A stretch of 35,188 nt of DNA, from positions 1-35,188 of the forward strand of contig DUMA01000020.1 of the NCBI GenBank assembly GCA_012840135.1, in the 5' to 3' direction. Each line of letters starts with the position of its first letter. The stretch's first letter is position 1. The notes beneath the pieces were generated by a model. It did not search any database, was not told the DNA's origin, and was given only the letters and a program-made list of their open reading frames with translations. This document shows, one piece after another, positions 4,411 through 20,370 of the stretch. Source of the stretch: Thermoanaerobacterales bacterium. Lineage in GTDB: Bacteria; Bacillota; Thermosediminibacteria; Thermosediminibacterales; Tepidanaerobacteraceae. The translations under genes were made by a program, and so were the position numbers.

Positions 4411-5376
4411 TCATTTCCCCCATTTCTTTGCTTTATATTTTTCGTTTAATACATCGATTATGATTATTAGAACTATAATAAATCCTATTAACGTAAATTG
4501 TATCGGAGGGGTAAAACCGTAAAGATTCAAACCGTTCATTAAGATTGCTATTATTAATGCTCCTATTAGAGTGCCGACAATTCCTCCCCTTCCACCTTCA
4601 AAGGGTGTCCCTCCTATCAATGTTGCGGCAATAGCGTCAAATTCATAACCGGAACCGGCTATGGGGCTTGCCGAATTTACTTTCGATGCCAGTACAATCC
4701 CGGCTATGCCGGCCAGTATCCCACTTAGAATGTAAGTCTTAAAAACAATCGCTTCCGTATTAATTCCGGCATATTTGGATATTTGTTCGCTGCCTCCCAC
4801 AGAATAAACATTACTGCCGAAAGTGGTGCGCAGTGTCAAAAATACAAGCAAAATAGTAATACCAGATGCAATTAATACAATTACCGGTAAACCAAACAAA
4901 GAACCGTCACCCAAAAATCTAAAATCGTTTCCAAAGCCGGGGACTGTAGCACCATTGGTAATGACCAGAGCCAGGCTCTGAATAATTCCCATACTGGAAA
5001 AAGTCACTATCCAGAAGTCAAATCCCTGGTAACTTATAAGATAGCCATTAAACATTCCCAGTAAAGCTCCGGCCACCACACCTAGAAAAACAGAAATCCA
5101 TACCGGCATTCCGTTATGAATCATTAATCCCGTTACAACTCCCGTCAAAGACATTATGGAACCGATAGACATGTCGATTTTACCGAGCAATATGGTCAAT
5201 GTCATTGCGAACGAAGCAATCACCAGGATGGAAGCCTGTTCAAGTATGTTTATAAAATTATTCAATGTAAAAAAATAGGGTGTCGTTATACTGAATATAC
5301 AGACCACGGCTAACAGGCCAAACAAAATGCCGGGTACTTTTTTAAATTTATTTTTTGAGTTTATTAGATTAACCAT
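4411..5376 (-). CDS. CUT2 sugar ABC transporter permease (RbsC family), first of a pair
   Basis: The protein is a 321-residue polytopic membrane protein with the RbsC-family motif LLGKIDMSIGSIMSL (where GGIDLSVGS is usual) and AATLIGGTPFEGGRGG. The GGID motif is changed to GKID, a mild divergence from the norm. The start overlaps the last codons of the ATPase gene by 8 bases, and GGGAG lies at good spacing before the ATG. Together with the downstream permease, the ATPase (5369-6889) and the lipoprotein (6955-7911) it forms a complete importer. Confidence 0.88.
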   Translation of the reverse strand: MVNLINSKNKFKKVPGILFGLLAVVCIFSITTPYFFTLNNFINILEQASILVIASFAMTLTILLGKIDMSIGSIMSLTGVVTGLMIHNGMPVWISVFLGVVAGALLGMFNGYLISYQGFDFWIVTFSSMGIIQSLALVITNGATVPGFGNDFRFLGDGSLFGLPVIVLIASGITILLVFLTLRTTFGSNVYSVGGSEQISKYAGINTEAIVFKTYILSGILAGIAGIVLASKVNSASPIAGSGYEFDAIAATLIGGTPFEGGRGGIVGTLIGALIIAILMNGLNLYGFTPPIQFTLIGFIIVLIIIIDVLNEKYKAKKWGK

Positions 5377-6889
5377 GCTTTTCTCCCTTTCCTATGGCAA
5401 AGCTTATTATTTTCTCTTGATTATAATTTTGATGATCAAATTCGGCTACAATTTTTCCCTGATACATTACATATATTCTGTCGGTCAATCCCATTATTTC
5501 TTTAATGTCCGACGATATCATCATTATTGCCCGGCCTTTTTTAGCCAGTTCATCCATTATCTCATATATTTCCGCTTTTGCCCCTACGTCTATACCGCGA
5601 GTCGGTTCATCGAAAATAATAATATCAGACTCCGTTAAAAGCCATTTTGCCAGTACCACTTTCTGTTGATTACCGCCACTTAAATTTTTAACTATTTTAT
5701 GAGCATCCGGTGTGGCTATGTTTAATTCTTTAATATACTTTTTAGAAATCTCCAGTTCCAATTCCTCTTTTAATATGCCGGAAGGAAATACTTTTTTCAA
5801 ACTTGCCTGGACGATGTTTTGCTTCACCGACATTTTTATATTCAGTCCTTCTTCTTTACGATCTTCGGGTAACAAACCAATTTTGTTCTTCACCGCTTCG
5901 GTTGGAGTTAATTTGCTCAATTTCCTGCCGAAAACATATATACTCCCTTTATCCGGCTTGTATTCGCCAAAAACCGTTTTGGCTACCTCCGTCCTTCCAG
6001 CACCAACTAGACCGTAAAATCCCACTATTTCTCCTTCGTGTATTTTAAAGCTTACGTCACGAATTCTTTTATTTAGAGTCAATCCCTCGACCCTTAACGC
6101 TTCCTTACCTATCTTGTTGTACGTCCTGGTGTAGAGATTCTCTATCTTCCTTCCGACCATCATTTTTACCAGTTCATCAGTAGAAGTGTCGCACACCTCA
6201 ACTGTTCCAATGTATTTACCATCTCTCAGCACGGTGACCCTGTCGCCAATAATCTTGATTTCTTCAAGCCTGTGAGAAATATATATAATGCTTACACCTT
6301 TTGCCTTAAGTTGCAGAATTATATTAAAAAGTTTGTCTATTTCATTTTTTGTGAGGGTGGCAGTGGGTTCATCCATGATAAGTATTTTTACTTCGCTTGA
6401 AAGAGCTTTGGCTATTTCTACCATCTGTTTTTGCGCAACGCCCAAATCTTTTACTAAAGCATATTCGTTTATATTTATTTCCAGTGAATCCAGCAACTCT
6501 CTACATTTTTTGTACATGACACTTCTATCTATTACATCCACTAATTTTAAGTTCTTTCGTGGTTCTTTTCCCAGGTAAATATTTTGCGCTATGTCTCTAA
6601 AAGGTAAAAGGTTAAATTCTTGATGTATGATTCCGATTCCCAGTTTTTCCGCATCCTTGACCCCATTGATGGTAACCTCTTTATTATCAATAAAAATCTT
6701 CCCGCCATCTTTTTTGTAGACGCCACAAAGTATCTTCATTAATGTTGATTTTCCGGCACCATTTTCGCCCAGAAGTACATGAACTTCTCCCTGTTTTACT
6801 TCTAAACTGACTCTGTCTAATGCCAGGACTCCGGGAAATTCTTTCGTAATATTTTCAAGGCGCAAAATTACATCATTTTTAATACTCAT
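5369..6889 (-). CDS. CUT2 sugar ABC transporter ATPase with two ABC domains (RbsA family)
   Basis: This 506-residue cytoplasmic ATPase has two fused ABC domains. Domain 1 (about 1-245) has Walker A GENGAGKST, signature LGVAQKQMVEIA and Walker B ILIMDEPTATLT. Domain 2 (about 255-500) has a degenerate Walker A (GLVGAGRTE), signature LSGGNQQKVVLAKW and Walker B IIIFDEPTRGID. This asymmetry is normal for RbsA/XylG/MglA proteins. GGGGGG lies eight bases before the ATG. It follows the lipoprotein gene after a perfect hairpin and overlaps the next permease by 8 bases. The substrate is unknown. Confidence 0.92.
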   Translation of the reverse strand: MSIKNDVILRLENITKEFPGVLALDRVSLEVKQGEVHVLLGENGAGKSTLMKILCGVYKKDGGKIFIDNKEVTINGVKDAEKLGIGIIHQEFNLLPFRDIAQNIYLGKEPRKNLKLVDVIDRSVMYKKCRELLDSLEININEYALVKDLGVAQKQMVEIAKALSSEVKILIMDEPTATLTKNEIDKLFNIILQLKAKGVSIIYISHRLEEIKIIGDRVTVLRDGKYIGTVEVCDTSTDELVKMMVGRKIENLYTRTYNKIGKEALRVEGLTLNKRIRDVSFKIHEGEIVGFYGLVGAGRTEVAKTVFGEYKPDKGSIYVFGRKLSKLTPTEAVKNKIGLLPEDRKEEGLNIKMSVKQNIVQASLKKVFPSGILKEELELEISKKYIKELNIATPDAHKIVKNLSGGNQQKVVLAKWLLTESDIIIFDEPTRGIDVGAKAEIYEIMDELAKKGRAIMMISSDIKEIMGLTDRIYVMYQGKIVAEFDHQNYNQEKIISFAIGKGEKHG

Positions 6890-6916
6890 TATTGATTCCC
6901 CCCAGGTTTTGAGTCT

Positions 6917-6947
6917 GTGAGGTATTACACCGAGTGTAATACCTCAC
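6917..6947 (-). repeat. Perfect 14-bp hairpin between the lipoprotein and ATPase genes
   Basis: GTGAGGTATTACAC (6917-6930) and its exact reverse complement (6934-6947) are separated by CGA. There is no U-tract on the minus strand, so it is not a standard terminator. The position just after the binding-protein stop fits an mRNA-stabilising or partial-termination element that raises binding-protein levels over the membrane components. Confidence 0.8.
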
Positions 6948-6954
6948 TTTACAA

Positions 6955-7911
6955 CTATTGTTGTAAATACTGATCCACATTGTTTTCATCCACTATTGTG
7001 GTTTCTACTACTATTCTTTCGTCAACGGGCTCATTATTTAAAATTTTAAATGCCGCCTCTACTCCCTGGTAGCCCTGATCATAGCTCTTTTTGTCGCAAG
7101 TAAGAGTCATTTTACCTTCCTTAATAGCTTGAATGGCATCTTTATTGGCATCTAAACCCGCAATCATGATCTTTCCGGTAAGGCCGGCCTGATTGACCGC
7201 TTCCACCGCTCCCATGGCCATCTCGTCATTTGAAGCAAAAATGGCATTTATATCAGGATGAGCCTGCAAGAGGTTCTGTGTAACCTGCATCGCTTCTGCC
7301 CTGTTCCAGTTGGCGGTCTGAGACGCTACAACATTAATATTCGGGTATTTTTTAAATGTATCGACGGCGCCGTTTTTCAAATCAATGGCACTTTGAGCGC
7401 CGGCTTTACCCTCGAGTATGATTACTTTGCCTTTTTCACCCATCTTTTTAGCCAGCGCTTCGGCAACTTTACTAGCGGCATCATAGTTTTCGACAGCCAC
7501 AAAGGTCTCGGTTTTGCCTCCGCCAACTTTGGTGTTCACATTTATTATCGGAATGCCTGCGGCGTTAGCCTTTTCGACAGCCGGAATTATGCCTTTGGTA
7601 TCTGCCGGCACCAGAATTATGGCATCAACCTTTTTTGTTATCGAATCTTCGACCTGGCGAATCTGTTCTTCATTATTATCGGCCTTCAATGGTGCCAGAA
7701 CGGTTAATTCAACACCGAGTTTGGCAGCGGCATCTTCCCCACCTTTTTTGACCGCCTGCCAGGTGGGATTTACTAGATTCTTCAAAATCATTACTACTTT
7801 CTTTTTCTCGGATTTAGATGCATCGTTTGCCTGCTGGCTTTTAGAGCCACACCCTGTAAAGAAAAGAAGGCCCATTACCAAAAGTGATACTAATAGATAA
7901 CTTTTTTTCAT
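6955..7911 (-). CDS. CUT2 transporter solute-binding lipoprotein (RbsB-like)
   Basis: This periplasmic-binding-protein-like lipoprotein of 318 residues has a signal peptide with lipobox FTGC (cleavage before Cys at about residue 21), then a Ser/Lys/Gln-rich linker and two Rossmann-like lobes of the Peripla_BP_4 type (KNLVNPTWQAVKKGGEDAA…, DAIILVPADTKGIIPAVEKA…, AIFASNDEMAMGAVEAV). ATG 7911 is chosen because GGGAGGG (7917-7923) sits just upstream; the TTG at 7926 would place the SD inside the gene. It captures the substrate for the ATPase and paired permeases downstream. It is related to but clearly distinct from the lipoprotein at 21718-22692, so the two transporters probably differ in substrate. 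Confidence 0.9.
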   Translation of the reverse strand: MKKSYLLVSLLVMGLLFFTGCGSKSQQANDASKSEKKKVVMILKNLVNPTWQAVKKGGEDAAAKLGVELTVLAPLKADNNEEQIRQVEDSITKKVDAIILVPADTKGIIPAVEKANAAGIPIINVNTKVGGGKTETFVAVENYDAASKVAEALAKKMGEKGKVIILEGKAGAQSAIDLKNGAVDTFKKYPNINVVASQTANWNRAEAMQVTQNLLQAHPDINAIFASNDEMAMGAVEAVNQAGLTGKIMIAGLDANKDAIQAIKEGKMTLTCDKKSYDQGYQGVEAAFKILNNEPVDERIVVETTIVDENNVDQYLQQ

Positions 7912-8060
7912 CAAATACCCTCCCAAAATAAGATTTTAACAGTTCTTTATTATAATTTTTTTATTATTATCACCCCTCTCTATTTTTCTAATATTATTTC
8001 CCCGGGGATTTATTTGAACATACTGTATTTTTAACAAGTAAAACCGTCGCATTAATCAAA

Positions 8061-9128
8061 TTACGGAACCACTACCACTTTTATAGCGCCGCCAATCCTT
8101 TCCTTGAATGTTTTTACTGCTTCATTAATGTCATCAAGACTGAACTTATGGGTTATAAGAGGCTTGACATCGATTTTCCCCTGGGCCAGCAATGGCAGTA
8201 TCCTCTCGATGCACCACATACCTTCGGCTTTGCCGCCCGCCATTTGAATATTATATTGAACGACTCTGTTCAAATCCAGTTTAACCATGTCTTTGTATAT
8301 CCCAATAAATGAAATGCGACCGCTTTTTCTGGTGATTTTCACCGCCTGTTGGGGACCATCGGTGCTGCCGGAAGCCTCAATCGTAAGGTCTACACCGTAC
8401 CCGTTTGTAAGTTCGTTTATTCTTTTATATAAATCTTCTTCTTTGATATTTATGAGCATGTCAGCTCCCATTTTTGTCCCTACGCTCAATCTGGAATTCC
8501 TGGTACCTATCAGTATTACTTTGCCTGCTCCAGATACTTTTGAAAGCTGGACTGCCATAAGGCCAATAGGACCCGGCCCTATTACGGCCACAGTCTCTCC
8601 CGGTTGCACCCATCCAATCCTTTCCATACCATAAAGGGCTGTCCCGGCGGCAGTCACGATGGTGCCTTCTTCAAAACTTACATTATCCGGCAATTTATGC
8701 AGACAATTGATATGAATGGCTACATACTCGGCGTAACCTCCGTTCACCGTAAAGCCGTAATGCCTGTGTCCTTTCTCAAGATTCCCATAATTCAAGCAAG
8801 TCGTATATAACCCCCTGATGCAGTTGATACACCTGCCGCACCCTTTATGAGGTTCTGCCACCACTCTATCGCCTATATTAAACTCGTCAACTCCTTCTCC
8901 CAATGCCACTACTTCTCCCGAAAACTCATGGCCGGGTATATAGCTTCCAAAAGGAGGGCAGTTGGGCCATCCGTGCTCAATGATTTCCGGGTCTGTTCCA
9001 CAAATCGCACATGCTTTTACTTTTACCAGGACTTCTTCTTTTTCGGGTTTGGGCACCACTGTTTCGACTACTCTCAAGTCATTTGAACCAAATAGAACAG
9101 CTGCTTTCATCCGATCGGGTATATTCAT
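8061..9128 (-). CDS. Zinc-dependent medium-chain dehydrogenase (polyol/alcohol type)
   Basis: This 355-residue GroES-like/NAD(P)-Rossmann dehydrogenase retains the catalytic zinc site (Cys43 in ICGTD, His67-Glu68 in GHE) and a structural zinc site (Cys97, Cys100, Cys103, Cys111). The dinucleotide loop is GPGPIG (about 185-190). Its closest look is to sorbitol/threonine/arabitol-type dehydrogenases oxidising a secondary alcohol. AAAGGGGG lies eight bases before ATG 9128; a second in-frame ATG six codons on has a weaker site. Lying in an operon with iolN2, it could make the mono- or diketone that IolN2 opens, or reduce a ring-opened keto acid. The specific substrate cannot be assigned. Confidence 0.85.
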   Translation of the reverse strand: MNIPDRMKAAVLFGSNDLRVVETVVPKPEKEEVLVKVKACAICGTDPEIIEHGWPNCPPFGSYIPGHEFSGEVVALGEGVDEFNIGDRVVAEPHKGCGRCINCIRGLYTTCLNYGNLEKGHRHYGFTVNGGYAEYVAIHINCLHKLPDNVSFEEGTIVTAAGTALYGMERIGWVQPGETVAVIGPGPIGLMAVQLSKVSGAGKVILIGTRNSRLSVGTKMGADMLINIKEEDLYKRINELTNGYGVDLTIEASGSTDGPQQAVKITRKSGRISFIGIYKDMVKLDLNRVVQYNIQMAGGKAEGMWCIERILPLLAQGKIDVKPLITHKFSLDDINEAVKTFKERIGGAIKVVVVP

Positions 9129-9178
9129 CGGGAGGTCCCCCTTTCCTCAATTTAAAAACTTTATTTTAAATGGCATCT

Positions 9179-10207
9179 TTAAAAACGCAACTCCACCTTT
9201 CTTGACATTGAAATATTCTTACTAATGCTAAAAGCTTCATCATACTTCTCAAACGGCAATATATGGCTTATCATCTTTCTTACATAGTCCCTGTTCTTTT
9301 TCATAAAGTCCAGTATAAATTCAAATTCCCCGGTCCCTCCGATACTTCCCAGAATGGTTAAAGCTTTCATTACTATAAGTTTTTGTATTATCCTCGCCTC
9401 GGGCATCATCCCGACGCACCCTACTATGCCCAGCGGTTTTACAAGTCTCAATGCACTTTGAAATGCCTTTTCATTGCCTGTGGTTTCTATCACCGCATCA
9501 AAATGAGCGTTTTGATATAGCGAAGTATAATTAGACCAGTCAATTTCGCTATCTTCCATCAAATGCTCATCGGGTATTTGAGCTCCTACGGATTGAGCAA
9601 ATGTTCTCCTGTTTTCATCAATATCAAAAAGATATACTTTTTCACAATGATAAAACTTTTTTAAGAGCATCAGTGCCGCAATTCCGATGGAACCTCCGCC
9701 CAATATGAGAAAAGACTCGGGCACAAAATCAGCTCTCATAATCTTATTTACCAAATGTGCAGCCACCGCCATGGGTTCCGAAAGACATATCAAATCAAAA
9801 TCAAGTTCATCTGGAGCTTTATATATATATTTTGAATCTCTTACAATGAATTCGGCGGAAGCACCATCCAGTGTTATGCCGTATTTTTCTATATGTCTGC
9901 ATAAATTTTTATCCTGCCTGCAATAATCACAATTATCGCAGTACCTCGAACAGTCGCCGGTCACTCTATCTCCCGGTTTTAATCCCTTCACAGCGCTGCC
10001 GACTCCAAATATAGTGCCCGACCACTCGTGCCCGAATAAAATCGGATATTTATGGGGGCCGCTGTACGTCCCATCATATAGGTGTATGTCCGAACCGCAT
10101 ATGCCCACATGGCTTATTTTTATCAAAACCTCATTTTCGTTCAATTTCGGTATTTCTTTTTCTTCAACCAGAATTTTTTTCGGCTCCTCCAAAATATACG
10201 TTTTCAT
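9179..10207 (-). CDS. Zinc-dependent medium-chain dehydrogenase (sorbitol dehydrogenase-like)
   Basis: This 342-residue MDR enzyme has catalytic zinc ligands Cys37 (GICGSD) and His60-Glu61 (GHE), and a structural-zinc loop with Cys90, Cys93, Cys96 and Cys103. The nucleotide loop is GGGSIG (about 169-174). It is only distantly similar to the neighbouring MDR enzyme at 8061-9128, so this is not a recent duplication. GGGGGT lies seven bases before the ATG. It sits between the 2-hydroxyacid dehydrogenase and the other MDR in the GntR-controlled operon. Two consecutive MDR enzymes plus an IolN homologue parallel the IolG/IolM/IolN logic of successive oxidations before ring opening, but this is inference. 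Confidence 0.85.
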   Translation of the reverse strand: MKTYILEEPKKILVEEKEIPKLNENEVLIKISHVGICGSDIHLYDGTYSGPHKYPILFGHEWSGTIFGVGSAVKGLKPGDRVTGDCSRYCDNCDYCRQDKNLCRHIEKYGITLDGASAEFIVRDSKYIYKAPDELDFDLICLSEPMAVAAHLVNKIMRADFVPESFLILGGGSIGIAALMLLKKFYHCEKVYLFDIDENRRTFAQSVGAQIPDEHLMEDSEIDWSNYTSLYQNAHFDAVIETTGNEKAFQSALRLVKPLGIVGCVGMMPEARIIQKLIVMKALTILGSIGGTGEFEFILDFMKKNRDYVRKMISHILPFEKYDEAFSISKNISMSRKVELRF

Positions 10208-10235
10208 CTAAATTACCCCCAAAATTATACGAAAA

Positions 10236-11192
10236 TCAAGCAACAATAAAATCTGGAGATTGTCCACTGAAAAACTTAACTACATTCTTTGCACATATCA
10301 TGCTGACCGCATTTAATGCTTCTTTCGAATAGGAAGCTATATGGGATGTTATTAAAACATTTTCAAGCGTCAATAAAGGATTGTTTTTTGGGGCAGGCTC
10401 AACTTTTAAAACATCTAAAGCGGCTCCGGCTAGATGACCTTTTTTTAAATATTCATACAGCGCACTTTCATTTACTATTCCGCCCCGGGAAGTATTGACT
10501 AAAAATGCGCCTTTCTTCATTTTGTTTAATTCATCTTCATCGATCAAGTTGATTGTGTTTTGATTTAACGGAACATGTACTGTAACTATTTCTGAACTTC
10601 TTAACAAAGAATCCATATCGACGAATTTTACATAGGGAAATGAATTTGAAGATCCGCTAAAATAAGGATCGTATGCCAGTATATTCATATCAAATCCAGT
10701 GGCCCTTTTTGCAACTCTTTTCCCTATTTCTCCAAAACCGATAATACCAATGGTTTTACCGTATATATCGACACCTATGGTCTTAACCCATTCCCCATTT
10801 CTGACACCGATAATGTTATCGCTTATTTTCCTCAATAAATCTATTATTAACCCGAACGTAAAATCAGCCACCGCATTCGAATTGGTTGCGGGAACATTGG
10901 TCACTATAATCCCATTCTTTCGTGCTGTCTCGATGTCTATGTTGTCAACCCCTGTGCCGTGCTTGCAGATGAGTTTTAATCTTTTCGAAGAATTAAGCAC
11001 ATTGCCATTTATCTTATCTGCACCAATTATAATGGCGTCAAACTCATCTATTACTTCCAGAAAATCCTTTTCTTCCATTAAACCGTGTTTTTCTTTAAAT
11101 TTATAATTAATATTGTTCTCCCTCAGGATTTTTACAGGCTCGTCGCTCACCTGGCCGAAAGACCTTGATGTAATCAAAACATTTATCGCCAA
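10236..11192 (-). CDS. D-isomer-specific 2-hydroxyacid dehydrogenase
   Basis: The enzyme is an NAD-dependent dehydrogenase of the SerA/GhrB superfamily, 318 residues from the TTG at 11192. The NAD-binding motif is GIIGFGEIG. The catalytic triad is Arg (preceded by LICKHGTGVDNID and seen near the VNTSRGG segment), Glu in LKVEPAP and His in ITSHIAS. A TTG start is chosen because GAGG lies seven bases upstream and the translated N-terminus (LAINVLITSR) begins the first beta strand. The longer frame would reach well back into the kinase gene. It overlaps the kinase stop by 10 bases, so it is translationally coupled. A 2-ketoaldonate reductase role would suit the sugar-acid context; phosphoglycerate or other hydroxyacid substrates cannot be excluded. 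Confidence 0.85.
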   Translation of the reverse strand: MAINVLITSRSFGQVSDEPVKILRENNINYKFKEKHGLMEEKDFLEVIDEFDAIIIGADKINGNVLNSSKRLKLICKHGTGVDNIDIETARKNGIIVTNVPATNSNAVADFTFGLIIDLLRKISDNIIGVRNGEWVKTIGVDIYGKTIGIIGFGEIGKRVAKRATGFDMNILAYDPYFSGSSNSFPYVKFVDMDSLLRSSEIVTVHVPLNQNTINLIDEDELNKMKKGAFLVNTSRGGIVNESALYEYLKKGHLAGAALDVLKVEPAPKNNPLLTLENVLITSHIASYSKEALNAVSMICAKNVVKFFSGQSPDFIVA

Positions 11193-12187
11193 TTTGTATT
11201 CCTCGCTCTCAATATTTCTAAAAATCCTTCTACCGAGCAATTGACTTCGGATTTGTATACCGTCAGGGTGCTTATTTTATCGTCAAGGGCTTTTATAAGA
11301 GCCCTGTAGACTTCCGCCATGCCTCTGTCGGCATAAATTACTGCAAACTCTATATCATGCCATTTTTCATTCACATATTTTTCAAAACACAGTATGTCTC
11401 CCCCGACAATCGCTCCCTCCAAAAAGGAAGTTCTGGCAAAGTTGTCTGCGATGTCAAATATCCTCATAGTATTTATTAAATAAATGGCCTTATTGAATCC
11501 ATATTTTTTTAAAACATTGTAAGCATGCCTTACCATATTTTCGTCATACTCGGTCATTGTAGTTTCAATCGATGAGGAGACAATGGTATTGCGGGAGATG
11601 GCATAAAATAGCTCGCCTGAAATAGTAGAAACAAAATCAAGTATTTGACCATTTTTGACATATGTTATCTGCGTATGCGATCCCGGCATAAAGATAGCCA
11701 ATGCTTTGTTTTTTACTTTTTCACCTAAATATTTCAAGATGCCGAATATTTCGGTTTCTTCACCCCTCATAGAGTTTACGTCAAATATATTTTCAATTGT
11801 AACGTTTTTCCCGGGAACATCCCTCAATCCTCTAATTAAATTAATATTTCTTTTAAAAAACATTTCTTCATAGTGTGTATATATACTTTTACACAAGCCA
11901 TTTAAATCTATCGGTATATCAAGGTGCGGAACTTCTTTTATGCCGTAAGGAGATGTTACCATTCCGGACGCATATATTTCGTTTATATCACCATCGCACA
12001 GTCCATTTTTTTCAAGGAGTTCATCATATATTTCTTTTAATCCCTTTAAAAGAATGCCGTTATCCCGGGCTATAGAGCAATCCTTTGAACCGACGGCTTT
12101 TCTTATTGAATCAATAATAGTGCCATCCTTTATTAGATAAAGTCTGGAGTTGGATGTTCCCGAATCGAAATAAGCGAATATTGCCGT
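11183..12187 (-). CDS. dgoK: 2-dehydro-3-deoxygalactonokinase (DgoK) with a non-standard start codon
   Basis: It phosphorylates 2-keto-3-deoxygalactonate (or the gluco epimer) to the 6-phosphate for the aldolase encoded just upstream. The DgoK signature is present: AYFDSGTSNSRLYLI (phosphate-binding N-terminus), IRGLRD, MRGEETE, MPGSHTQITYV and STISGELFYAI. The frame is open to the stop of the aldolase gene, but the region 11963-12190 contains no ATG, GTG or TTG in frame. The first ATG (11962) would delete 75 residues, including the phosphate-binding loop. An ACG at 12187-12185 lies six bases after GGAGGGG and would give 334 residues starting (M)AIFAYFDSG, the usual length. An in-frame AUA two codons on is the alternative. 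Either a non-canonical start, a mutated ATG or a sequence error. It is three bases from the aldolase stop and overlaps the next gene by 10. Confidence 0.85.
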   Translation of the reverse strand, partial: TAIFAYFDSGTSNSRLYLIKDGTIIDSIRKAVGSKDCSIARDNGILLKGLKEIYDELLEKNGLCDGDINEIYASGMVTSPYGIKEVPHLDIPIDLNGLCKSIYTHYEEMFFKRNINLIRGLRDVPGKNVTIENIFDVNSMRGEETEIFGILKYLGEKVKNKALAIFMPGSHTQITYVKNGQILDFVSTISGELFYAISRNTIVSSSIETTMTEYDENMVRHAYNVLKKYGFNKAIYLINTMRIFDIADNFARTSFLEGAIVGGDILCFEKYVNEKWHDIEFAVIYADRGMAEVYRALIKALDDKISTLTVYKSEVNCSVEGFLEILRARNTNWR

Positions 12188-12190
12188 AAA

Positions 12191-12835
12191 TTACCCCTCC
12201 TTTATTTTCTCAACGTAAAGGCCTGCAAGTTCCGAAAGTCTGTCAAATTCTCCGGCATTGATTAAAGATTTGCTGACCAGATTTCCACCGATTCCTACGC
12301 CGACGGCGCCCATGTGCAGGTACTCATTCATATTGTTTAAATCCACGCCTCCTACCGCCAAAAGAGGGATATTTTGAAGAGGAGCCAGAACAGCTTTGAT
12401 ATATTCGGGCCCCAGCGACCCTGCGGGAAAAACCTTCACAAAATCTGCTCCCGACACATGAGCCCTGTATATCTCACTGGGAGTAAAAGCCCCCGGAATT
12501 GAAACCATATTAGCTTTTTTTGCAGCAGCAATTACCTGTTCATCAATATTGGGCGACACAATAAATTTTGCGCCCGCATCGTAGGATTTTTCCACTTGCT
12601 CCTGGCTCAGGACCGTCCCCGCACCGATTATAACCCGATTTTGAAATTCGCTTTCGACTAGCTTGATGCAATCAAAAGCATCATCCCTGTTCAGGGTTAC
12701 TTCCATAATATTTAATCCACCTTTTAATAGGGCTTCAGCCGTCTTCAATATCTTTTCTTTCCCAATTCCCCTGATAATGGCAATAATTTTATTTTCACGA
12801 ATCGCATTTATGATATAATCATTATCAATATTCAT
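12191..12835 (-). CDS. KDPG/KDPGal-type class I aldolase (Eda/DgoA)
   Basis: This 214-residue TIM-barrel aldolase cleaves 2-keto-3-deoxy-6-phospho-gluconate or -galactonate to pyruvate and glyceraldehyde-3-phosphate. The Schiff-base lysine is Lys134 in GADFVKVFPA. Glu45 lies in the conserved MEVTL motif, and IIGAGTVL is the usual third strand. ATG 12835 is preceded by GGGGAGG; the longer frame runs back into the dehydrogenase gene and is an artefact. Pairing with dgoK three bases downstream favours a 2-keto-3-deoxygalactonate-6-phosphate substrate. It is the terminal step of the module encoded in this operon. Confidence 0.92.
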   Translation of the reverse strand: MNIDNDYIINAIRENKIIAIIRGIGKEKILKTAEALLKGGLNIMEVTLNRDDAFDCIKLVESEFQNRVIIGAGTVLSQEQVEKSYDAGAKFIVSPNIDEQVIAAAKKANMVSIPGAFTPSEIYRAHVSGADFVKVFPAGSLGPEYIKAVLAPLQNIPLLAVGGVDLNNMNEYLHMGAVGVGIGGNLVSKSLINAGEFDRLSELAGLYVEKIKEG

Positions 12836-12848
12836 GTTATCCTCCCCG

Positions 12849-13607
12849 TCAACAGGCCAGGTACCCGCCATCCACCGGAATGACGGCCCCGCAGATGTAG
12901 TCCGACGCATCCGATGAAAGAAAGACTATAAGGCCTTTGATATCATCCGGAGTTCCCCAGCGGCCTTTCGGTATTCTTTTTAGAATAGAATTGAATCTTT
13001 CCTGGTCGTTTAAAATCTGGGTATTCAGTGCGGTGGCCATGTAACCGGGAGCGATAGCATTCACGTTGATGCCCTTTTGAGCCCATTCATTCGAAAGAGC
13101 TTTTGTCAGCTGAGCCACCGCTCCTTTACTTGCTGCATAGGCCGGAACCGTATATCCTCCAAAGTAGCTCAACATAGAAGCAAAATTGATTATTTTCCCT
13201 TTCCCTTTTTCAAGCATTTTTCTTCCAGCCAACTGGCACATTAAAAAGACTGAAGTGAGATTTACTTCCAGGACGTCATCCCAATCTTTTTCGGTGAAAT
13301 CCTCACATTTATTCCTTCTTTGAATTCCCGCGCCATTCACAAGTATGTCCACGTCGCCCAGTTTTTCTACCGCTTGATTGAAAGCATTTTTTAATTCATC
13401 TCTTTTGCCGAGGTTAGCCCGTATACCGTAAACTTTCGGACCGCTGTTTTTTTCAATATTTCTCGCCACATCTTCCACATCTTTTGCTATATCGATAATT
13501 GCCACATCCGCGCCGGCTTCATGAAGACCATATACGGCACTTAAACACAGACCCGAGGCTCCGCCCGTGACAATGGCTTTTTGACCGCTTAAGTCAAACA
13601 TGTTCAC
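12849..13607 (-). CDS. KduD-like short-chain dehydrogenase (2-keto-3-deoxygluconate 5-dehydrogenase type)
   Basis: This SDR oxidoreductase of about 252 residues most resembles KduD, which interconverts 2,5-diketo-3-deoxygluconate and 2-keto-3-deoxygluconate. KduD-like stretches include KIINFASMLSYFGG, NVNAIAPGYMAT and IPKGRWGTPDD. Catalytic Ser lies in FASML and Tyr-x3-Lys in YAASK. The cofactor motif is unusual: TGGASGLC, with Cys replacing the final Gly of TGxxxGxG, and NGAG in place of NNAG. The GTG at 13607 lies nine bases after AAAGGAG and is preferred; ATG 13601 is also possible. Placed before the aldolase and kinase, it would deliver a 2-keto-3-deoxyhexonate to DgoK. A gluconate 5-dehydrogenase or fructuronate-reductase-like role is the alternative. 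Confidence 0.85.
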   Translation of the reverse strand: MNMFDLSGQKAIVTGGASGLCLSAVYGLHEAGADVAIIDIAKDVEDVARNIEKNSGPKVYGIRANLGKRDELKNAFNQAVEKLGDVDILVNGAGIQRRNKCEDFTEKDWDDVLEVNLTSVFLMCQLAGRKMLEKGKGKIINFASMLSYFGGYTVPAYAASKGAVAQLTKALSNEWAQKGINVNAIAPGYMATALNTQILNDQERFNSILKRIPKGRWGTPDDIKGLIVFLSSDASDYICGAVIPVDGGYLAC

Positions 13608-13634
13608 TAATATCAACTCCTTTGGGTCTCGAGC

Positions 13635-13653
13635 ATGGGCGAAATTTGCCCAT
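13635..13653 (-). repeat. Small intercistronic hairpin
   Basis: ATGGGC and GCCCAT flank a seven-base loop between iolN2 and the kduD-like gene. Outer GGGT/ACCC can extend the stem. No U-tract follows, so it is a processing or stability element at most. Confidence 0.4.
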
Positions 13654-13679
13654 ACCCGTTTGCAACCCGTAATTATTAT

Positions 13680-14801
13680 TTATAGCTTTTTATATACACC
13701 TATCTGAGGCAACTCATCAATAGATTTCCATCCGGGGCTGAGAGGTTCTTTTAAGAAGGGTTTCATTTCTTCCTCTGTGCGGAGCGTAACCATCTCCACA
13801 GGAGGTACAGTGCCCGGGGGGAATGCCTCCAATATCTGATCTATCAGAAGCGTAAGGTATTTCAATATAGCAGCAATCGGTCTCTTCGCCTTTCTGGCGG
13901 AGGCTATGCTTGGTTTTCCTACGACGCCTTCCGGTGTTGCCGCGCGTTCAATGGCCATATGCCCTTCGCCTTCGGACCATCTATGAGGCCTTCTATAAGG
14001 ATCTACCGACGTATCAAAATGTCCATCCGGCAAGAATCCTTTCGGTTCAGCATCGACCACAACGCTCATATCTATCATGCCGGGGAACAGCAACAGACCG
14101 ACTGATGTTTCGCTTTCATCCGCATGCACAAAGTGTGTTTCCAGACTATCATCCCTATCGACGGGATAGAAAAATTCTCTAACAGCCCGATGCCAATCAA
14201 TGACCTGGAATATCCCAGGCAGCTGGAACCTTTTCATGAATTCCTGAATGGCGGACTCGAGCATCCAGAGGTGGCCATGGTTGTTTACAAGGATAATCTT
14301 CCGGAAACCGTCGTTCCACAGGCCCAGCATGGTATATATAATAGTTTCTTCAACAACTTCTTTAGGCATGATAACCGTTCCGGGCATTCCAAGATGGTGA
14401 TACGGATGACCGCCGTAGTTCAAAGGCGGAAACGCAAGACTCACCTCTCTTCCCTGTTTTGCAGTATAACGGCGTACGCCTTCGATAATTTGAGTCACCA
14501 TGAAAGTATCAAGACCGCTATTGGCATGAATTCCATGATTCTCGGTGCATCCGATGGGCACCAACACTATGTCATTTTTCCTTCGCTTTTCAATAACCTT
14601 CGCTCTCGGGGTATTTTGTATATAAGTTCCGGGTTTCCCCAGTTCGGATTCCGATGGGATTTCATATTCTTTCAATATGCTGTCGATTTCCTCTTCAGAA
14701 GCGTCCCAAATTTGCTTCTTCATTCTTCCAACGGTATTATCCTCAAAAATTATTGCAGGGTTTTCCGTCAATAGCCATTTTTTATCCTTTGGTTTTTCCA
14801 T
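13680..14801 (-). CDS. iolN: Second 3-dehydro-scyllo-inosose hydrolase-like protein (IolN paralogue, creatininase family)
   Basis: This 373-residue creatininase-family amidohydrolase-like protein resembles Thermotoga maritima IolN (TM0413), which opens the diketo-inositol ring hydrolytically to 5-keto-L-gluconate. Likely metal ligands are Glu87 and His89 (TENHG), Asp98 (SGLDTF), His175 (NNHGH) and Glu229 (HADESE), matching the creatininase pattern. It has the same length as the copy at 19120-20241 and differs at about 36 positions (about 90% identical). All putative metal ligands are conserved; differences cluster in the N-terminal 30 residues, at residues 247-252 and at the C-terminus. ATG 14801 follows AAGGAAGGAG. 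It is the first gene of the operon behind a GntR operator, and its partners differ from those of the first copy, suggesting a different diketo-cyclitol substrate. Confidence 0.88.
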   Translation of the reverse strand: MEKPKDKKWLLTENPAIIFEDNTVGRMKKQIWDASEEEIDSILKEYEIPSESELGKPGTYIQNTPRAKVIEKRRKNDIVLVPIGCTENHGIHANSGLDTFMVTQIIEGVRRYTAKQGREVSLAFPPLNYGGHPYHHLGMPGTVIMPKEVVEETIIYTMLGLWNDGFRKIILVNNHGHLWMLESAIQEFMKRFQLPGIFQVIDWHRAVREFFYPVDRDDSLETHFVHADESETSVGLLLFPGMIDMSVVVDAEPKGFLPDGHFDTSVDPYRRPHRWSEGEGHMAIERAATPEGVVGKPSIASARKAKRPIAAILKYLTLLIDQILEAFPPGTVPPVEMVTLRTEEEMKPFLKEPLSPGWKSIDELPQIGVYKKL

Positions 14802-14946
14802 TGATATTTCTCCTTCCTTTACATTAATGATTAATTGTAGTTTTATTTTGCGGGTTATTTTTACGGCAGGATATCCATACCCATTTAGATTTTTAATGAT
14901 TCTATACGCGGCCGGCCTGTACACTAAAATATTTATTATATATTTT

Positions 14947-14984
14947 TGGTATACCATATATATTACATTAAGCCTTTGGCTCAA
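14947..14984 (-). promoter_or_regulatory. Promoter of the iolN2 operon with a GntR-type operator
   Basis: On the minus strand TTGAGC (14984-14979), a 16-base spacer and TATATA (14962-14957) form the promoter. The perfect palindrome TGGTATACCA (14947-14956) abuts the -10 on its downstream side, where a repressor would block initiation. A matching site lies upstream of the gntR gene at 15757-15767. The leader to ATG 14801 is about 140 bases. Confidence 0.6.
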
Positions 14985-15033
14985 GTTTATTAACCTGGGC
15001 CTTATGCCCGGCGATTTCAATCATAAAATTCTT

Positions 15034-15708
15034 TTATAATTTGCCGAGAAGATACTTTAAATTTTTTATATGGTATTCTTTACTTTCCGATATGTGATGT
15101 TTCATCAATTTTTCCGCTTCAACGTAATTTCGTTGAGAAATTTCCTTAAAAATTTCCTTATGATGAGTCAGTGTTGTTTCCGCTCTGGCAATATCTTTTA
15201 TGGTCAAATTGGTTATTCTTTCTATCTTTGTCCTGATATTTTCCATAATGTTTTTCAAGTTTTTATTTTTACATCCTTTTAATATGAGGTGATGAAAAGT
15301 TTTGTCGTATTCAACAAATTTTTCCAGGTCATTGTTTCGTTTCATTCTTTCTTGCAAATCCAGGACTCTTTTCAATTCATCAATTTCCTCTTCAGTGGCA
15401 CAAATACAAAACAATTTTACGGCCAAACCTTCCAGGACCTCACGAATATCATAAATTTCTGTTATAACTTCATACGTGATGTTTGTAACAAAAGCGCCCC
15501 GATTGGGCAGTATCTCAACAAGTCCGTCGCTGGCCAATTTTAATATGGCTTCTCTTATCGGAGTTCTGCTGATATTCAGCCTTTCGCACAACTCCCTCTC
15601 GTTTAAAACAGTGCCCGGTTTTAAAACATTGTTTAATATATCGTCTTTTATTTTTTCATAGGCGTAATCTTTCTTTGATTTTAGTTCTTTATATTCAGCC
15701 ATTTGCAT
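15034..15708 (-). CDS. GntR-family transcriptional regulator, FadR/FCD subfamily
   Basis: This 224-residue regulator has an N-terminal winged helix (residues about 9-72, with ERELCERLNISRTPIREAI as the recognition region) and an all-helical FCD ligand-binding domain (residues about 80-215, with DIREVLEGLAV, DKTFHHLIL and a helix carrying HHKEIFKEI). The FCD domain commonly binds sugar acids with a metal held by Asp/His residues, which fits an inducer such as a keto-gluconate. GGTGGA lies seven bases before ATG 15708. The gene precedes the iolN2 operon by about 230 bases, and TTGGTATAC palindromes are found at both its own promoter and the operon promoter, indicating autoregulation plus control of the operon. 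Confidence 0.9.
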   Translation of the reverse strand: MQMAEYKELKSKKDYAYEKIKDDILNNVLKPGTVLNERELCERLNISRTPIREAILKLASDGLVEILPNRGAFVTNITYEVITEIYDIREVLEGLAVKLFCICATEEEIDELKRVLDLQERMKRNNDLEKFVEYDKTFHHLILKGCKNKNLKNIMENIRTKIERITNLTIKDIARAETTLTHHKEIFKEISQRNYVEAEKLMKHHISESKEYHIKNLKYLLGKL

Positions 15709-15756
15709 TTTAAATCCACCTATTCATAATTTACATAGTATATGATTTATATATAT

Positions 15757-15767
15757 TTGGTATACAA
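15757..15767 (-). promoter_or_regulatory. GntR-type operator upstream of gntR
   Basis: TTGGTATACAA is a near-perfect palindrome sharing the TTGGTATAC core of the site at 14947-14956. On the minus strand it overlaps TTGTAT, a possible -35, with TATACT about 19 bases downstream. It lies 49 bases upstream of the gntR ATG. Confidence 0.55.
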
Positions 15768-15908
15768 TTTATATATTATATATTCTCTGTCAAAATAAAA
15801 AATCCTGCTTGTTAATGAAATTATTTTAAAAAATTTATCAAAAAAGTACCGTCTTATCAGGTACCTTCTCAATTATCTACAATCAACAATATTCTTCTGA
15901 CACAATAT

Positions 15909-15940
15909 AAAATGCCCATTCTGAAGTTTTAAGATGGGCA
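15909..15940 (-). terminator. Terminator of the lacI-iol operon
   Basis: On the minus strand the arms TGCCCAT (15940-15934) and ATGGGCA (15919-15913) form a 7-bp stem around a 14-base loop, followed by UUUUAUAUUG. It lies about 25 bases after the stop of the last gene of the operon and before the gntR promoter, separating the two transcription units. Confidence 0.6.
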
Positions 15941-15965
15941 TAAAGGATATTTTCATTAAATAAAT

Positions 15966-16751
15966 TTAAAAATTCATTTCTTTTATGATTTTAATCGCGT
16001 CTTCCGAGCTGTTTAGCGGAAAAAGTTCGAATCCTATTATTCCATTATAATTCAATGTTCTTAAAGTATTCAGTACATTGTTATAATTTATTTCTCCCGT
16101 ACCCGGTTCATGTCTTCCCGGTACATCAGCGATATGTATATATCCAATCGAATCTATATATTTTTTAATAGTGGCAATTATATTTCCTTCCATAATCTGC
16201 ATATGGTATACATCATATAATATTTTTATATATGGAGAATTCACTAATTGAACAGCTTCTGCAGCAACTCTTGTGTTAGTTAAAAAATTGCCTGCATGAT
16301 CTATTTCGGTGTTCAATGCTTCTAAAACCAGTGTTATTTTCTCCTTTTCAGCAATCGGGGACAACTTTTTTAAAACATTTAGCATGGTCCCGAATTTTCT
16401 GTAACTGCTCATCTCCTTATAATCATTTAGAACCAATCCTCCAGGGCCCAGAGCATTAGAATGAATTACCAGATGATTGCATTTTAAATATTTTGCTGTC
16501 TCAATGGATTCTTTGATAAAAGAAATATATTTTTCCGATTCATTGTCATCAATTAATGAATAATCCTGATCGCCAGAAAAACTGGCTACTTTAAGGTCGT
16601 TTTTTTCACACAATTCTTTTATCTTATCAATATTTTTATCTTTCCATGACCAAAATTCGATGTAATCGAAACCAGATTGCTTAACTAATTCAAATCTTTT
16701 CTCAAAAGGCGCTTCAGTAAAGATAGTTTCAATACATATTGACTTTATCAT
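15966..16751 (-). CDS. Hydroxypyruvate-isomerase-like TIM-barrel protein (AP endonuclease 2 family)
   Basis: This 261-residue sugar-phosphate isomerase/epimerase-like TIM barrel matches the Hyi/OtnI group in its metal-binding segments: VLEALN (Glu), LYDVYHMQIMEGN (Asp and His), and HIADVPGRHEPGTGEINY, ending with Glu in IIGFELFP. Hyi/OtnI enzymes isomerise small 2-keto acids or ketoacid derivatives. In this operon it could isomerise a product of inosose ring opening. It is distinct from the neighbouring iolO, sharing only the fold. A GGGGTTGG region precedes the ATG. It is the last gene of the lacI-controlled operon, 37 bases after iolO and before the terminator. An inosose dehydratase (IolE) is a related fold, but the motifs here are Hyi-like. 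Confidence 0.82.
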   Translation of the reverse strand: MIKSICIETIFTEAPFEKRFELVKQSGFDYIEFWSWKDKNIDKIKELCEKNDLKVASFSGDQDYSLIDDNESEKYISFIKESIETAKYLKCNHLVIHSNALGPGGLVLNDYKEMSSYRKFGTMLNVLKKLSPIAEKEKITLVLEALNTEIDHAGNFLTNTRVAAEAVQLVNSPYIKILYDVYHMQIMEGNIIATIKKYIDSIGYIHIADVPGRHEPGTGEINYNNVLNTLRTLNYNGIIGFELFPLNSSEDAIKIIKEMNF

Positions 16752-16788
16752 TTTTCCAACCCCTTTGTATTAATAAGATAACAACATT

Positions 16789-17604
16789 TTAATATATTTC
16801 ATATAAAGCATTTACATATTCAAATGCTTTTACTGCCGCTTCATCTTGAGTTGGCCACGGTAAACATTCAAAAGCAATGAAACCCTTATAATTTATTTTT
16901 TTTAATATTTTAATAATACTTTCAAAATTTATATGCCCCGCACCTGGATACCAGCGATTGCTATCCGCGAAATGGAGATGGCCTAGATACTTCCCTGCCA
17001 ATTCAATGCTTTGTTCAATATTTGGTTCTTCAATGTTCATATGAAAAGTATCAAGATGTAATTTAAGATAATTTGAATTGACTTTTTCAATTATATCAAG
17101 TCCATCTTCTACATTATTTACAAAATTTGTCTCATAACGATTGATAGCTTCCAAAAAAATCTTTACATTATTTTTTTCAGCATTCTCCAATACTTTTTTT
17201 AAACATTCAATAGCATAATGTTCGTACTTGATATGCTCTTTTACATTCGGTATTTTTCCGCGCATTGAACCAATTATTACTCCTGCATTAAGTTTTTTTG
17301 CTACATTTATATGAGTCAGAATTCTTTCGACTGCTTTCTCTCTTATAGCGAGGTCCGGATCAGTGAAGCTAAGACCATCAATTACATAACCCATGCCTGT
17401 TCCCAGAGTAGAAACACTTATTTTATTTAAATAACACGCATTCATAATTTCTTCAATATTCAAAGCGAGAGGGTTGTTTACATGAATTTCTACCGCTTTA
17501 TATCCTATTTCCGATGCTTTTTTTATACATTCCACATAGTTTCCTCTCAGAACTATCGGTGCATTTTCACCTGCATTTTCTGCAATTGATATGCTTAATT
17601 TCAT
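16789..17604 (-). CDS. iolO: 5-keto-L-gluconate epimerase (IolO)
   Basis: This TIM-barrel isomerase, about 271 residues long, closely resembles Thermotoga maritima IolO (TM0416), which converts 5-keto-L-gluconate to D-tagaturonate. Shared features include GTGMGYVIDGLSFTDP, REKAVERILTHINVA, VIIGSMRG, EAINRYETNFVN, LDTFHMNIEEPN and HFADSNRWYPGAGH. Expected metal ligands are Glu in EAINRYE, Asp and His in DTFHM, and a later Glu in FECLPWP. Two adjacent ATGs exist; the second (17604) has the better seven-base spacing from GGGGG. It lies downstream of iolG after a 250-base gap containing a MITE-like element, and upstream of the Hyi-like gene. Confidence 0.92.
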   Translation of the reverse strand: MKLSISIAENAGENAPIVLRGNYVECIKKASEIGYKAVEIHVNNPLALNIEEIMNACYLNKISVSTLGTGMGYVIDGLSFTDPDLAIREKAVERILTHINVAKKLNAGVIIGSMRGKIPNVKEHIKYEHYAIECLKKVLENAEKNNVKIFLEAINRYETNFVNNVEDGLDIIEKVNSNYLKLHLDTFHMNIEEPNIEQSIELAGKYLGHLHFADSNRWYPGAGHINFESIIKILKKINYKGFIAFECLPWPTQDEAAVKAFEYVNALYEIY

Positions 17605-17642
17605 CATGAAACCCCCAGAAATGATGAATTCATATTAATTTT

Positions 17643-17823
17643 TGACGGCCAGAAACCCAATAATTTTCCCACTGCTTTGTGCTCATTTGCATTTTTTCAA
17701 GAGTTACCTGCAACTCTACGTACCGTTTCAATGCCGGTTGTAGGGCTCATTTATCCTTTTCCTATTCCGTTTGATCTGAGGCAAAATCTTAATGAGCTCA
17801 CTCATTGGCTTATCTGGCCGTCA
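17643..17823. mobile_element. MITE-like remnant with 11-bp terminal inverted repeats
   Basis: TGACGGCCAGA (17643-17653) is an exact inverted copy of TCTGGCCGTCA (17813-17823), and similarity continues inward with one gap (AACCCAATAA against TAAGCCAATGA). The 181-bp interior has no intact gene. It contains short frames with decayed similarity to nothing I can name, one (17697-17750, minus) with its own SD and 17 codons (MSPTTGIETVRRVAGNS). It fills the gap between iolG and iolO in an otherwise compact operon. No clear target-site duplication is visible. An IS deletion derivative or MITE is the best reading. Confidence 0.5.
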
Positions 17824-17856
17824 GTATTTCCGTTGATTTTATTTAAAAACTCTATA

Positions 17857-18867
17857 TTATCTTTCTATCTTAATCGGTCTTCCTTCAACAAGAGATCTAT
17901 TTGCCGCCATACCTATCAACACCGGCTCTAAACCGTCTCTGCCGGTTACTATCGGTTTCTTATCATTTATTATGCAATCAAAGAATGCTTTCATTTCTTC
18001 AATATATGCGTCTTTATATCTTTCAGGGAAAAAATATTTTGGTTTGTCGCTGATAACGCCTTCAGCCGAGCTTAATACCGCACTACTTGGAGTATCATTT
18101 GAAACAGTGATGCAGCCTTTTGAACCGAATACTTCAACCCGTTGATCATAACCGTATACTGCCTTTCTGCTGTTGTCAATAACACCCAATGCTCCGTTCT
18201 CAAATTTTAAGCTTACAATTGCCGTATCAACATCACCTGCTTCACCTATAGCAGGGTCAATCAGAACAGCTGCAGAGGCGAATACCTCCGTGACATCACT
18301 TCCTGTAAGAAATCTAGCCATATCAAAATCATGAATCATCATGTCAAAGAATAATCCACCTGAACTCTTTACATATTCAATTGGCGGCGGTTCAGGGTCT
18401 CTGGATGTTATTTTTACTATATGCACATCTCCTACTTTTCCTTCTTGAATCAAATCGTAAACTCTTTTAAAATTGTGATCGAATCTTCTGTTGAATCCTA
18501 TTTGAAACTTAACATTTGCCTTTTCAACAGCATCAAGAGCTTGTTTGATTCTATCCAATTCAAAATCAATGGGTTTTTCACAAAAAATATCTTTTCCTGA
18601 ATTCGCGGCTTCTATTATTATCTGAGCATGAGTATCAGTCGAAGAAAATATTAATACAGCATCTATCTCTTTATCTTCAAGTATGTTTTTATAATCTTTA
18701 TATACATTTTTTATACCTAATTCTTCAGCCCAGGCTTTTATTTTATCGGCAAATATATCAGCAACTGCTTTTACTTCAACATATCTGAAATTAGAAACTA
18801 TATTTTCTGCATGCATCCTTCCGATTCTACCTGCTCCTATTATACCCAGCTTTAATTTTTTACCCAT
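17857..18867 (-). CDS. iolG: myo-Inositol 2-dehydrogenase (IolG, Gfo/Idh/MocA family)
   Basis: The enzyme is a 336-residue NAD-dependent dehydrogenase oxidising myo-inositol to scyllo-inosose. The N-terminal Rossmann domain has GIIGAGRIGRMHAEN (about 8-22), then the catalytic motif CEKPI (about 95-99), GFNRRFDHNF, and the catalytic Asp/His segment MMIHDFDMARFL (about 175-186). REPPPIEYV-type spacing (DPEPPPIEY) is characteristic of the inositol dehydrogenase branch. AGGAAGGTGA precedes the ATG. It sits between iolN and iolO, the arrangement expected for the first pathway step, but is separated from both by about 250-base non-coding elements. Another polyol or scyllo-inositol preference cannot be excluded. 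Confidence 0.9.
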   Translation of the reverse strand: MGKKLKLGIIGAGRIGRMHAENIVSNFRYVEVKAVADIFADKIKAWAEELGIKNVYKDYKNILEDKEIDAVLIFSSTDTHAQIIIEAANSGKDIFCEKPIDFELDRIKQALDAVEKANVKFQIGFNRRFDHNFKRVYDLIQEGKVGDVHIVKITSRDPEPPPIEYVKSSGGLFFDMMIHDFDMARFLTGSDVTEVFASAAVLIDPAIGEAGDVDTAIVSLKFENGALGVIDNSRKAVYGYDQRVEVFGSKGCITVSNDTPSSAVLSSAEGVISDKPKYFFPERYKDAYIEEMKAFFDCIINDKKPIVTGRDGLEPVLIGMAANRSLVEGRPIKIER

Positions 18868-18938
18868 AGATTCACCTTCCTAATAAATAATAAATTTTCA
18901 TAATAATTTTCCGCTTCCAGAGGTATTCAAATTTTTAT

Positions 18939-19077
18939 AATCACCTTCGTCGATATTTTTAAAAAAGCTTTTATTAAATAATCATGAAATATAGCTTTTT
19001 TTAATGTGCTACGGAAAGCTCTAAATCAAGGAAAATTTTTGCTTCCAACACATTATAAAAATATCGGCGAAGGTATT
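18939..19077. repeat. 139-bp inverted repeat that folds as a three-way junction
   Basis: Outer arms 18939-18961 and 19056-19077 pair over about 21 bases (ACCTTCGTCGATATTTTTA with its complement; one bulge and one T-G pair on the plus strand, A-C on the minus). Inside lie two hairpins: AAAAAAGCT/AGCTTTTTT (18961-18969 with 18993-19001) and AATGTG…GGAAaGC/GCTTCC…CACATT (19003-19019 with 19041-19054). No coding frame is evident. It lies between iolN1 and iolG. Confidence 0.65.
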
Positions 19078-19097
19078 AAATGGGGAATTTTTTTAAA

Positions 19098-19141
19098 AGG
19101 TGTTTCTACACTAGAAAATTTATAATTTATGGAAAACACCT
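19098..19141 (-). terminator. Weak hairpin at the end of iolN1
   Basis: On the minus strand AGGTGTTT (19141-19134) pairs with AAACACCT (19105-19098), followed by UUUU then an A-run. The left arm begins inside the last codons of iolN1. The loop is 28 bases, so termination would be partial at best, allowing read-through to iolG. Confidence 0.35.
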
Positions 19142-20241
19142 ATGGCGGGCAGCTCGTATACCGACTTCCAGCCTTCACTGAAGGGTTCTTTCAGGAAAGG
19201 CTTCATTTCTTCCTCGGTCCTAAGTGTGACTTTTTCCACCGGTGGCACGGTCCCCGGCGGGAAGGCTTCCAGAATCTGATCATTCAGCAAAGTTAAATAT
19301 TTCAATATAGCGGCGATGGGTCGTTTGGCCTTTTTCACTGTAGCGATGCTCGGTTTGCCTACAACTCCCTGCGGTGTGGCAGCCCGCTCTATTGCAGCAT
19401 GGCCTTCACCCTCGGACCAGCGGTGAGGTCTTCCGAAAGGATCGACAGATGTATCAAAATGACCATCGGGAAGGAAGCTTTCTCCCTGAGCATCCTGTAC
19501 AACGCTCATATCGATCATACCTGGGAACAGCAACAATCCTACTGATGTTTCGCTTTCATCGGCATGGACAAAGTGGGTTTCCATGCTGTCTTCTCTATCG
19601 GTCGGATAGAAGAATTCTCTCACTGCCCTGTGCCAGTCTAATACCTGGAATATCCCTGGAAGCTGGAACCTCTTCATAAATTCCTGTATGGCCGATTCAA
19701 GCATCCAAAGGTGCCCGTGGTTGTTTACCAGGATTATCTTTCTGAAACCATCGTTCCAGAGTCCCAGCATTGTATAGATAATGGTCTCTTCAACAACTTC
19801 TTTCGGCATTATCACCGTGCCGGGCATTCCCAGATGATGGTAGGGATGCCCTCCGTAGTTCAGCGGTGGGAAGGCCAGATTTACCTCCCTGCCCTGTTTT
19901 GCGGTGTAACGGCGCACACCTTCCAGTATTTGTGTTACCATAAATGTATCAAGACCACTGTTGGCATGCAGACCGTGGTTTTCGGTGCATCCGATGGGTA
20001 CAAATACAATGTCGTTCTTTCTCCGCTTTTCTATCACTTTAACTCTGGGGGTGTTCTGGATATATGTTCCCGGTTTTCCCAGTTCGGACTCGGACGGAAT
20101 TTCATATTCTTTCAAAATTGCATCGATTTCTTCTTCGGAAGCATCCCAGATTTGCTTCTTTAATCTGCCGACTTCGTTGTCTTCAAATTTTATTGCAGGA
20201 TATTCTGTCAAAATCCATTTCTTGTCCTTTGGCTTTTCCAT
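19120..20241 (-). CDS. iolN: 3-dehydro-scyllo-inosose hydrolase (IolN, creatininase family)
   Basis: This 373-residue metal-dependent hydrolase of the creatininase fold opens the 3-dehydro-scyllo-inosose ring to 5-keto-L-gluconate in the Thermotoga pathway. Putative metal ligands are Glu87, His89, Asp98, His175 and Glu229, in the same frame as in the second copy. Long invariant blocks (residues 121-200) are shared between the two copies. ATG 20241 is preceded by GAGAGGAG; the longer upstream frame has no SD and is rejected. It lies directly downstream of iolM and upstream of iolG, so its assignment to the inositol pathway is stronger than that of its paralogue. Confidence 0.9.
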   Translation of the reverse strand: MEKPKDKKWILTEYPAIKFEDNEVGRLKKQIWDASEEEIDAILKEYEIPSESELGKPGTYIQNTPRVKVIEKRRKNDIVFVPIGCTENHGLHANSGLDTFMVTQILEGVRRYTAKQGREVNLAFPPLNYGGHPYHHLGMPGTVIMPKEVVEETIIYTMLGLWNDGFRKIILVNNHGHLWMLESAIQEFMKRFQLPGIFQVLDWHRAVREFFYPTDREDSMETHFVHADESETSVGLLLFPGMIDMSVVQDAQGESFLPDGHFDTSVDPFGRPHRWSEGEGHAAIERAATPQGVVGKPSIATVKKAKRPIAAILKYLTLLNDQILEAFPPGTVPPVEKVTLRTEEEMKPFLKEPFSEGWKSVYELPAIGVFHKL

Positions 20242-20295
20242 GGTTAATCTCCTCTCATGTCTATAGTTAATCACTGTTTTGTTATGGAAAGTTAT

Positions 20296-20332: not shown

Positions 20333-20370
20333 TACAGTCTTATGCCTGAAAAATCCGGTTTCACACCTGT

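Follow-up and report, generated by a model that had tools for sequence, protein, structure and literature searches.

Where does the translation of dgoK begin? In the window, the whole stretch of 35,188 nucleotides analysed here, codons 1–75 of this gene include no ATG, GTG, or TTG. The first canonical start is codon 76, the ATG at 11962, when codons are numbered from the ACG at 12187 as codon 1. The initial annotation described these 75 codons as open, encoding the N-terminal phosphate motif and lacking a standard start, and this is borne out by the sequence, the translation, and the Pfam match. It also placed an ACG six bases after GGAGGGG and three bases after the upstream stop. These coordinates are correct: GGAGGGG is at 12200–12194, six bases follow before the ACG, and TTT is the sole sequence between the TAA of eda (12193–12191) and the ACG (12187–12185). 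Comparison with related genomes indicates that initiation probably takes place at this ACG. Judged from the sequence, dgoK is very likely an intact kinase gene, with weak initiation at ACG 12187 that would be assisted by a strong Shine-Dalgarno (SD) sequence, probably coupled to eda, and limiting for the kinase relative to the aldolase.

Table 1. Features around the start of dgoK, with positions in the window.
Feature	Position	Strand	Remarks
eda, KDPG/KHG aldolase	12191..12835	-	ATG start; directly upstream of dgoK; Pfam PF01081, E 7.4e-45; NCBIfam TIGR01182 above its cut-off
Shine-Dalgarno sequence AAAGGAGGGG	12194..12203	-	Within the last eda codons; duplex with the assumed Bacillota 16S tail -13.9 kcal/mol, rank 58 of 365 genes sampled
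eda stop, TAA	12191..12193	-	Same frame as dgoK; 3 nt ahead of the ACG
ACG, putative dgoK start codon	12185..12187	-	Only near-cognate codon common to the G004 and G003 orthologues; 8 nt past GGAGG
DSGTSNSR, phosphate-binding motif	12143..12166	-	From the translation; conserved in homologues; lost if translation starts at ATG 11962
First in-frame canonical start, ATG, codon 76	11960..11962	-	Unlikely to be the true start
dgoK	11183..12187	-	334 codons plus stop; 2-keto-3-deoxygalactonokinase family; Pfam PF05035, 125.6 bits, residues 8–307
D-2-hydroxyacid dehydrogenase	10236..11192	-	Downstream; Pfam 2-Hacid_dh and 2-Hacid_dh_C; probable TTG start, judged from sequence; overlaps the dgoK end

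The first 75 codons of dgoK are coding in nature. The Pfam DGOK match begins at residue 8 of the protein started at ACG (E 2.4e-36, 125.6 bits against a cut-off of 25), and the product covers positions 1–267 of the 281 in the family profile. Residues 8–15 are DSGTSNSR, which is found in all close DgoK homologues and is included only with a start upstream of ATG 11962. In this family, DSGTSNSR is a phosphate motif and stands at the beginning of the DGOK fold. Protein identity with the orthologue in G003 is 62% in the first 75 codons (46 of 74 aligned residues) and 51% in the remainder (130 of 253), indicating that the N-terminal segment is translated. Among 365 coding frames in a 518-kb sample of the genome, dgoK shows the strongest coding signal ahead of its first canonical start. 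By profile, the product belongs to the DGOK family, with a predicted 2-keto-3-deoxygalactonate/gluconate kinase activity.

Orthologues were searched in 26 genomes of the class, here designated G000 for the window's own genome and G003, G004, and G006 for the genomes compared with it. Close orthologues of dgoK are present in G004 and G003, where the protein identities are 99% and 54%, respectively. G004 is the metagenome-assembled genome A05DMB13 of Tepidanaerobacteraceae (JANLFP010000011), and its genus differs from that of G000. The eda-dgoK junction, AAAGGAGGGGTAATTTACGGCAATATTC, is identical in G004 and the window. In G003, which belongs to another genus, the junction is GAGGAGGTCTAATTACGCTGAAAGCATATTTTGATTCAGGG. 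The G003 gene also contains no ATG, GTG, or TTG ahead of codon 75, and an ACG is seen 7 nt past GGAGG at the position matched to that of the window. The operon order of G003 is the same as in the window: creatininase-like, SDR, eda, dgoK, 2-hydroxyacid dehydrogenase, and two alcohol dehydrogenases. The 2-hydroxyacid dehydrogenase of this operon probably starts with TTG in the window (11190–11192) versus ATG in G003. Viral contigs, which were also scanned, yielded no additional relatives. In G001, a genome of the same genus as the window genome, a distant match to DGOK is divided between two frames (L011/L012, G001:C1:531148-531911) and is perhaps a broken copy.

Four-fold degenerate sites are saturated between the window and G003: identity is at 17 of 67 sites for dgoK and 18 of 64 for eda, no more than chance would give. 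Of the 11 threonine codons conserved in dgoK and eda, not one is ACG in both the window and G003. An unconstrained threonine codon is therefore not expected to remain ACG, and the start triplet looks kept as a start rather than as a threonine codon. A single T-to-C change separates ACG from ATG, and ATG is found in neither lineage. In the stretch that directly precedes the DSGTSNSR motif, an ATG, GTG, or TTG is present in twelve further DgoK homologues; those with 40% identity, from G006 and Chakrabartyella, start with ATG. The initial annotation had listed a genuine non-canonical or coupled start keeping the kinase level low, a recent start mutation, and a sequence error as options, and had proposed to look at this codon in related genomes, where an ATG in all near relatives would speak for an error. 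ACG is present in G004 and in the more distant G003. This distribution supports the genuine non-canonical start and rules out both the error and the recent mutation.

The copies in G000 and G004 are not independent. Their sugar-acid operons (L044 in G004) are about 96–97% identical over at least 20 kb (window 5049–25038), whereas their rpoB genes are just 82.6% identical. Therefore, the whole cluster was most likely transferred recently between genera. The G000 and G004 copies represent one lineage, and the conservation of ACG rests on two lineages. Cross-matches to L044 also reveal that two creatininase-like genes in the window (13678–14814 and 19118–20253) are paralogues with about 77% DNA identity.

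Another non-canonical codon nearby could be the start, or initiation could be diffuse over several codons. AUA, AUU, and CUG are better-known weak starts than ACG; the window has AUA at codon 3, and in G003 ATT and CTG adjoin the ACG, with ATT ACG CTG in a row. But no AUA, AUU, or CUG is common to both lineages. The distance from GGAGG is 14 nt for the AUA and 4 nt for the ATT of G003, against 8 nt and 7 nt for the ACG in the window and G003. The AUA is the only other near-cognate codon in the first 12 dgoK codons of the window, and the initial annotation had named it as an alternative start. Since it is 14 nt from GGAGG and missing in G003, this suggestion is not supported and ACG is favoured. 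A start at one or several of these codons is thus improbable.

It is very unlikely that dgoK is a decaying pseudogene without a start, or that the gene yields just a truncated protein begun at ATG 11962, even though gene finders limited to ATG, GTG, and TTG would put the start there. The frame is open, and 54% amino acid identity persists although silent sites are saturated. Conservation in the N-terminal 75 codons is at least as high as in the remainder, and the truncated start would drop the phosphate motif. Besides, the DGOK profile matches only dgoK in the window genome, and G003 and G004 likewise have no second match.

An Eda-DgoK fusion produced by readthrough of the eda stop or by frameshifting was also considered. 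The window does have the two genes in one frame, with only TAA TTT between them, and a family of aldolase/sugar kinase fusions exists (NF041633), which is matched by the aldolase part. In G003, however, the frame of dgoK is -1 with respect to that of eda and is closed by a TGA shortly before the SD. This different frame relation (0 in the window) argues against readthrough, and in G003 neither readthrough nor a shift at the A-AAA-AAA run would yield a fusion. A strong SD is located at the eda stop, and TAA is usually an efficient stop. No continuous or recoded frame is kept in the orthologues, with TAA between the genes in the window and a different frame in G003, and the fusion was rejected as highly improbable.

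Editing of the mRNA from ACG to AUG occurs by C-to-U conversion in plant organelles, but according to PMC9845219 bacteria do not show it, and it has no sign at dgoK, which makes it barely conceivable here; a sequencing or assembly error is practically negligible too, since the ACG, one base from ATG as it is, occurs in three separate assemblies, including that of G003 with its 54% identical protein.

The duplex energy of the SD AAAGGAGG, computed like the others against an assumed Bacillota 16S tail, is in the top 16% of the 365 genes sampled: strong, not extreme. The corresponding energies are -12.7 kcal/mol for the G003 orthologue, which starts with ACG, and -7.9 kcal/mol for that of G006, which starts with ATG. 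Weak starts are reported to tend toward stronger SDs (PMC5622118), and the SD of dgoK fits this tendency. Compared with shuffled sequences, the window shows less folding around the start (z +1.7 and +2.2), and in G003 the start region is not unusually open (z -0.9). A conserved RNA structure is not supported by this comparison. A search for a special initiator tRNA in G000, G003, and G004 by an anticodon-loop pattern, which a differing loop could escape, found CAU loops only. IF3 is present in the genome. With these CAU anticodons and IF3, ACG would use the ordinary machinery and form a mismatched C-A pair at its middle position.

The following scheme can be proposed. The fMet-tRNA (anticodon CAU) would read ACG despite the mismatch, and the strong SD at the end of eda would set the ribosome on it. 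Ribosomes ending eda 2–3 bases upstream would probably re-initiate at the ACG, and coupling to eda is plausible. Termination-reinitiation works in a range including this stop-to-start distance of 2 to 3 nt (PMC10666635). The predicted N-terminus of the product is fMet-Ala-Ile-Phe-Ala-Tyr-Phe-Asp-Ser-Gly, and the expected N-terminal peptide is (fMet)-AIFAYFDSGTSNSR. The yield of kinase would be much below that of aldolase from the same mRNA. A metabolic reason can tentatively be suggested: a low level of kinase might prevent its product, KDPG or KDPGal, from being formed faster than the aldolase can use it. In E. coli, build-up of KDPG is bacteriostatic according to work cited in PMC9424857, and a low kinase/aldolase ratio would avoid such accumulation. 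It can further be speculated, with some reserve, that ACG is a selected regulatory start in bacteria, which was kept through saturated silent divergence, moved between genera with its operon, and sets a low kinase-to-aldolase ratio, and that similar genes are hidden from gene finders restricted to ATG, GTG, and TTG.

The known weak starts of bacteria are AUG changed at the first base (GUG, UUG, and CUG) or at the third (AUU, AUA, and AUC). In E. coli, initiation at ACG is expected to be very poor. The literature searched, which included few subscription papers, held no example of a natural ACG start in bacteria, and dgoK would use a codon with no natural precedent there as a bacterial start. 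The ACG of dgoK is probably an evolutionarily kept start in a bacterial enzyme gene that works like known weak-start genes. One of these is infC, encoding IF3, which starts with AUU or AUA and is autoregulated by its own product. Like dgoK, infC has a conserved non-canonical start behind a strong SD, which in infC limits translation. The two differ in that the mismatch of infC is at the third base and the gene is autoregulated, while that of dgoK is at the middle base and a comparable loop is not evident. The infC genes of G000, G003, and G004 seem to start with ATT, 8 nt past GGAGG. The apparent start at L078 (also L077 and L079; three genera) reads GGAGG-TGAATAGT-ATT, and a GTG inside this SD may be called as the start by gene finders.

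In S. aureus, infC and ccpN (AUA) and cvfC1 (AUU) have non-canonical starts with extended SDs, and in poor medium reporters with the non-canonical codons reached about 10% of the yield from AUG (PMC13009471). The AUA of Staphylococcus ccpN, also seen in B. subtilis ccpN, and the AUU of cvfC1 lower expression according to Ribo-Ret and reporters (PMC13009471). These genes resemble dgoK in belonging to Bacillota and in combining a conserved weak start with a strong or extended SD, and ccpN is a carbon-metabolism gene. They differ in their third-base mismatch, in encoding regulators or small proteins (ccpN and cvfC1), and in having been demonstrated experimentally, whereas dgoK is an enzyme gene inside an operon, right after a stop codon, with a putative start. 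The pcnB gene of E. coli starts with AUU (Binns and Masters 2002, as cited in PMC13009471). It codes for an enzyme whose amount is held down by inefficient initiation, as proposed for dgoK, but with AUU in place of ACG. Plant organellar genes share the ACG at the start position, but there it can be edited to AUG (PMC9845219), whereas bacteria are not known to do so.

If true, a conserved start with a mismatch at the middle base would widen the set of start codons used by evolution. It would also be a natural case in which to study the tolerance of IF3 and the initiator tRNA for a C-A pair in the P site, and gene finders would truncate genes of the dgoK type.

The sampled stretches, 518 kb in total, correspond to 16% of the window genome. 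Of the next five candidates after dgoK, three are gene fragments, from an SNF2 helicase, a transposase, and an ABC ATPase; the fourth is an ordinary DHDPS-family gene that starts normally, and the fifth is a GGDEF gene of ambiguous status. Genome-wide use of ACG starts is not supported in this sample. The open frame of the SNF2 helicase (L048, 16830–18209) begins in the middle of the associated domain without a start codon and is probably a disrupted gene.
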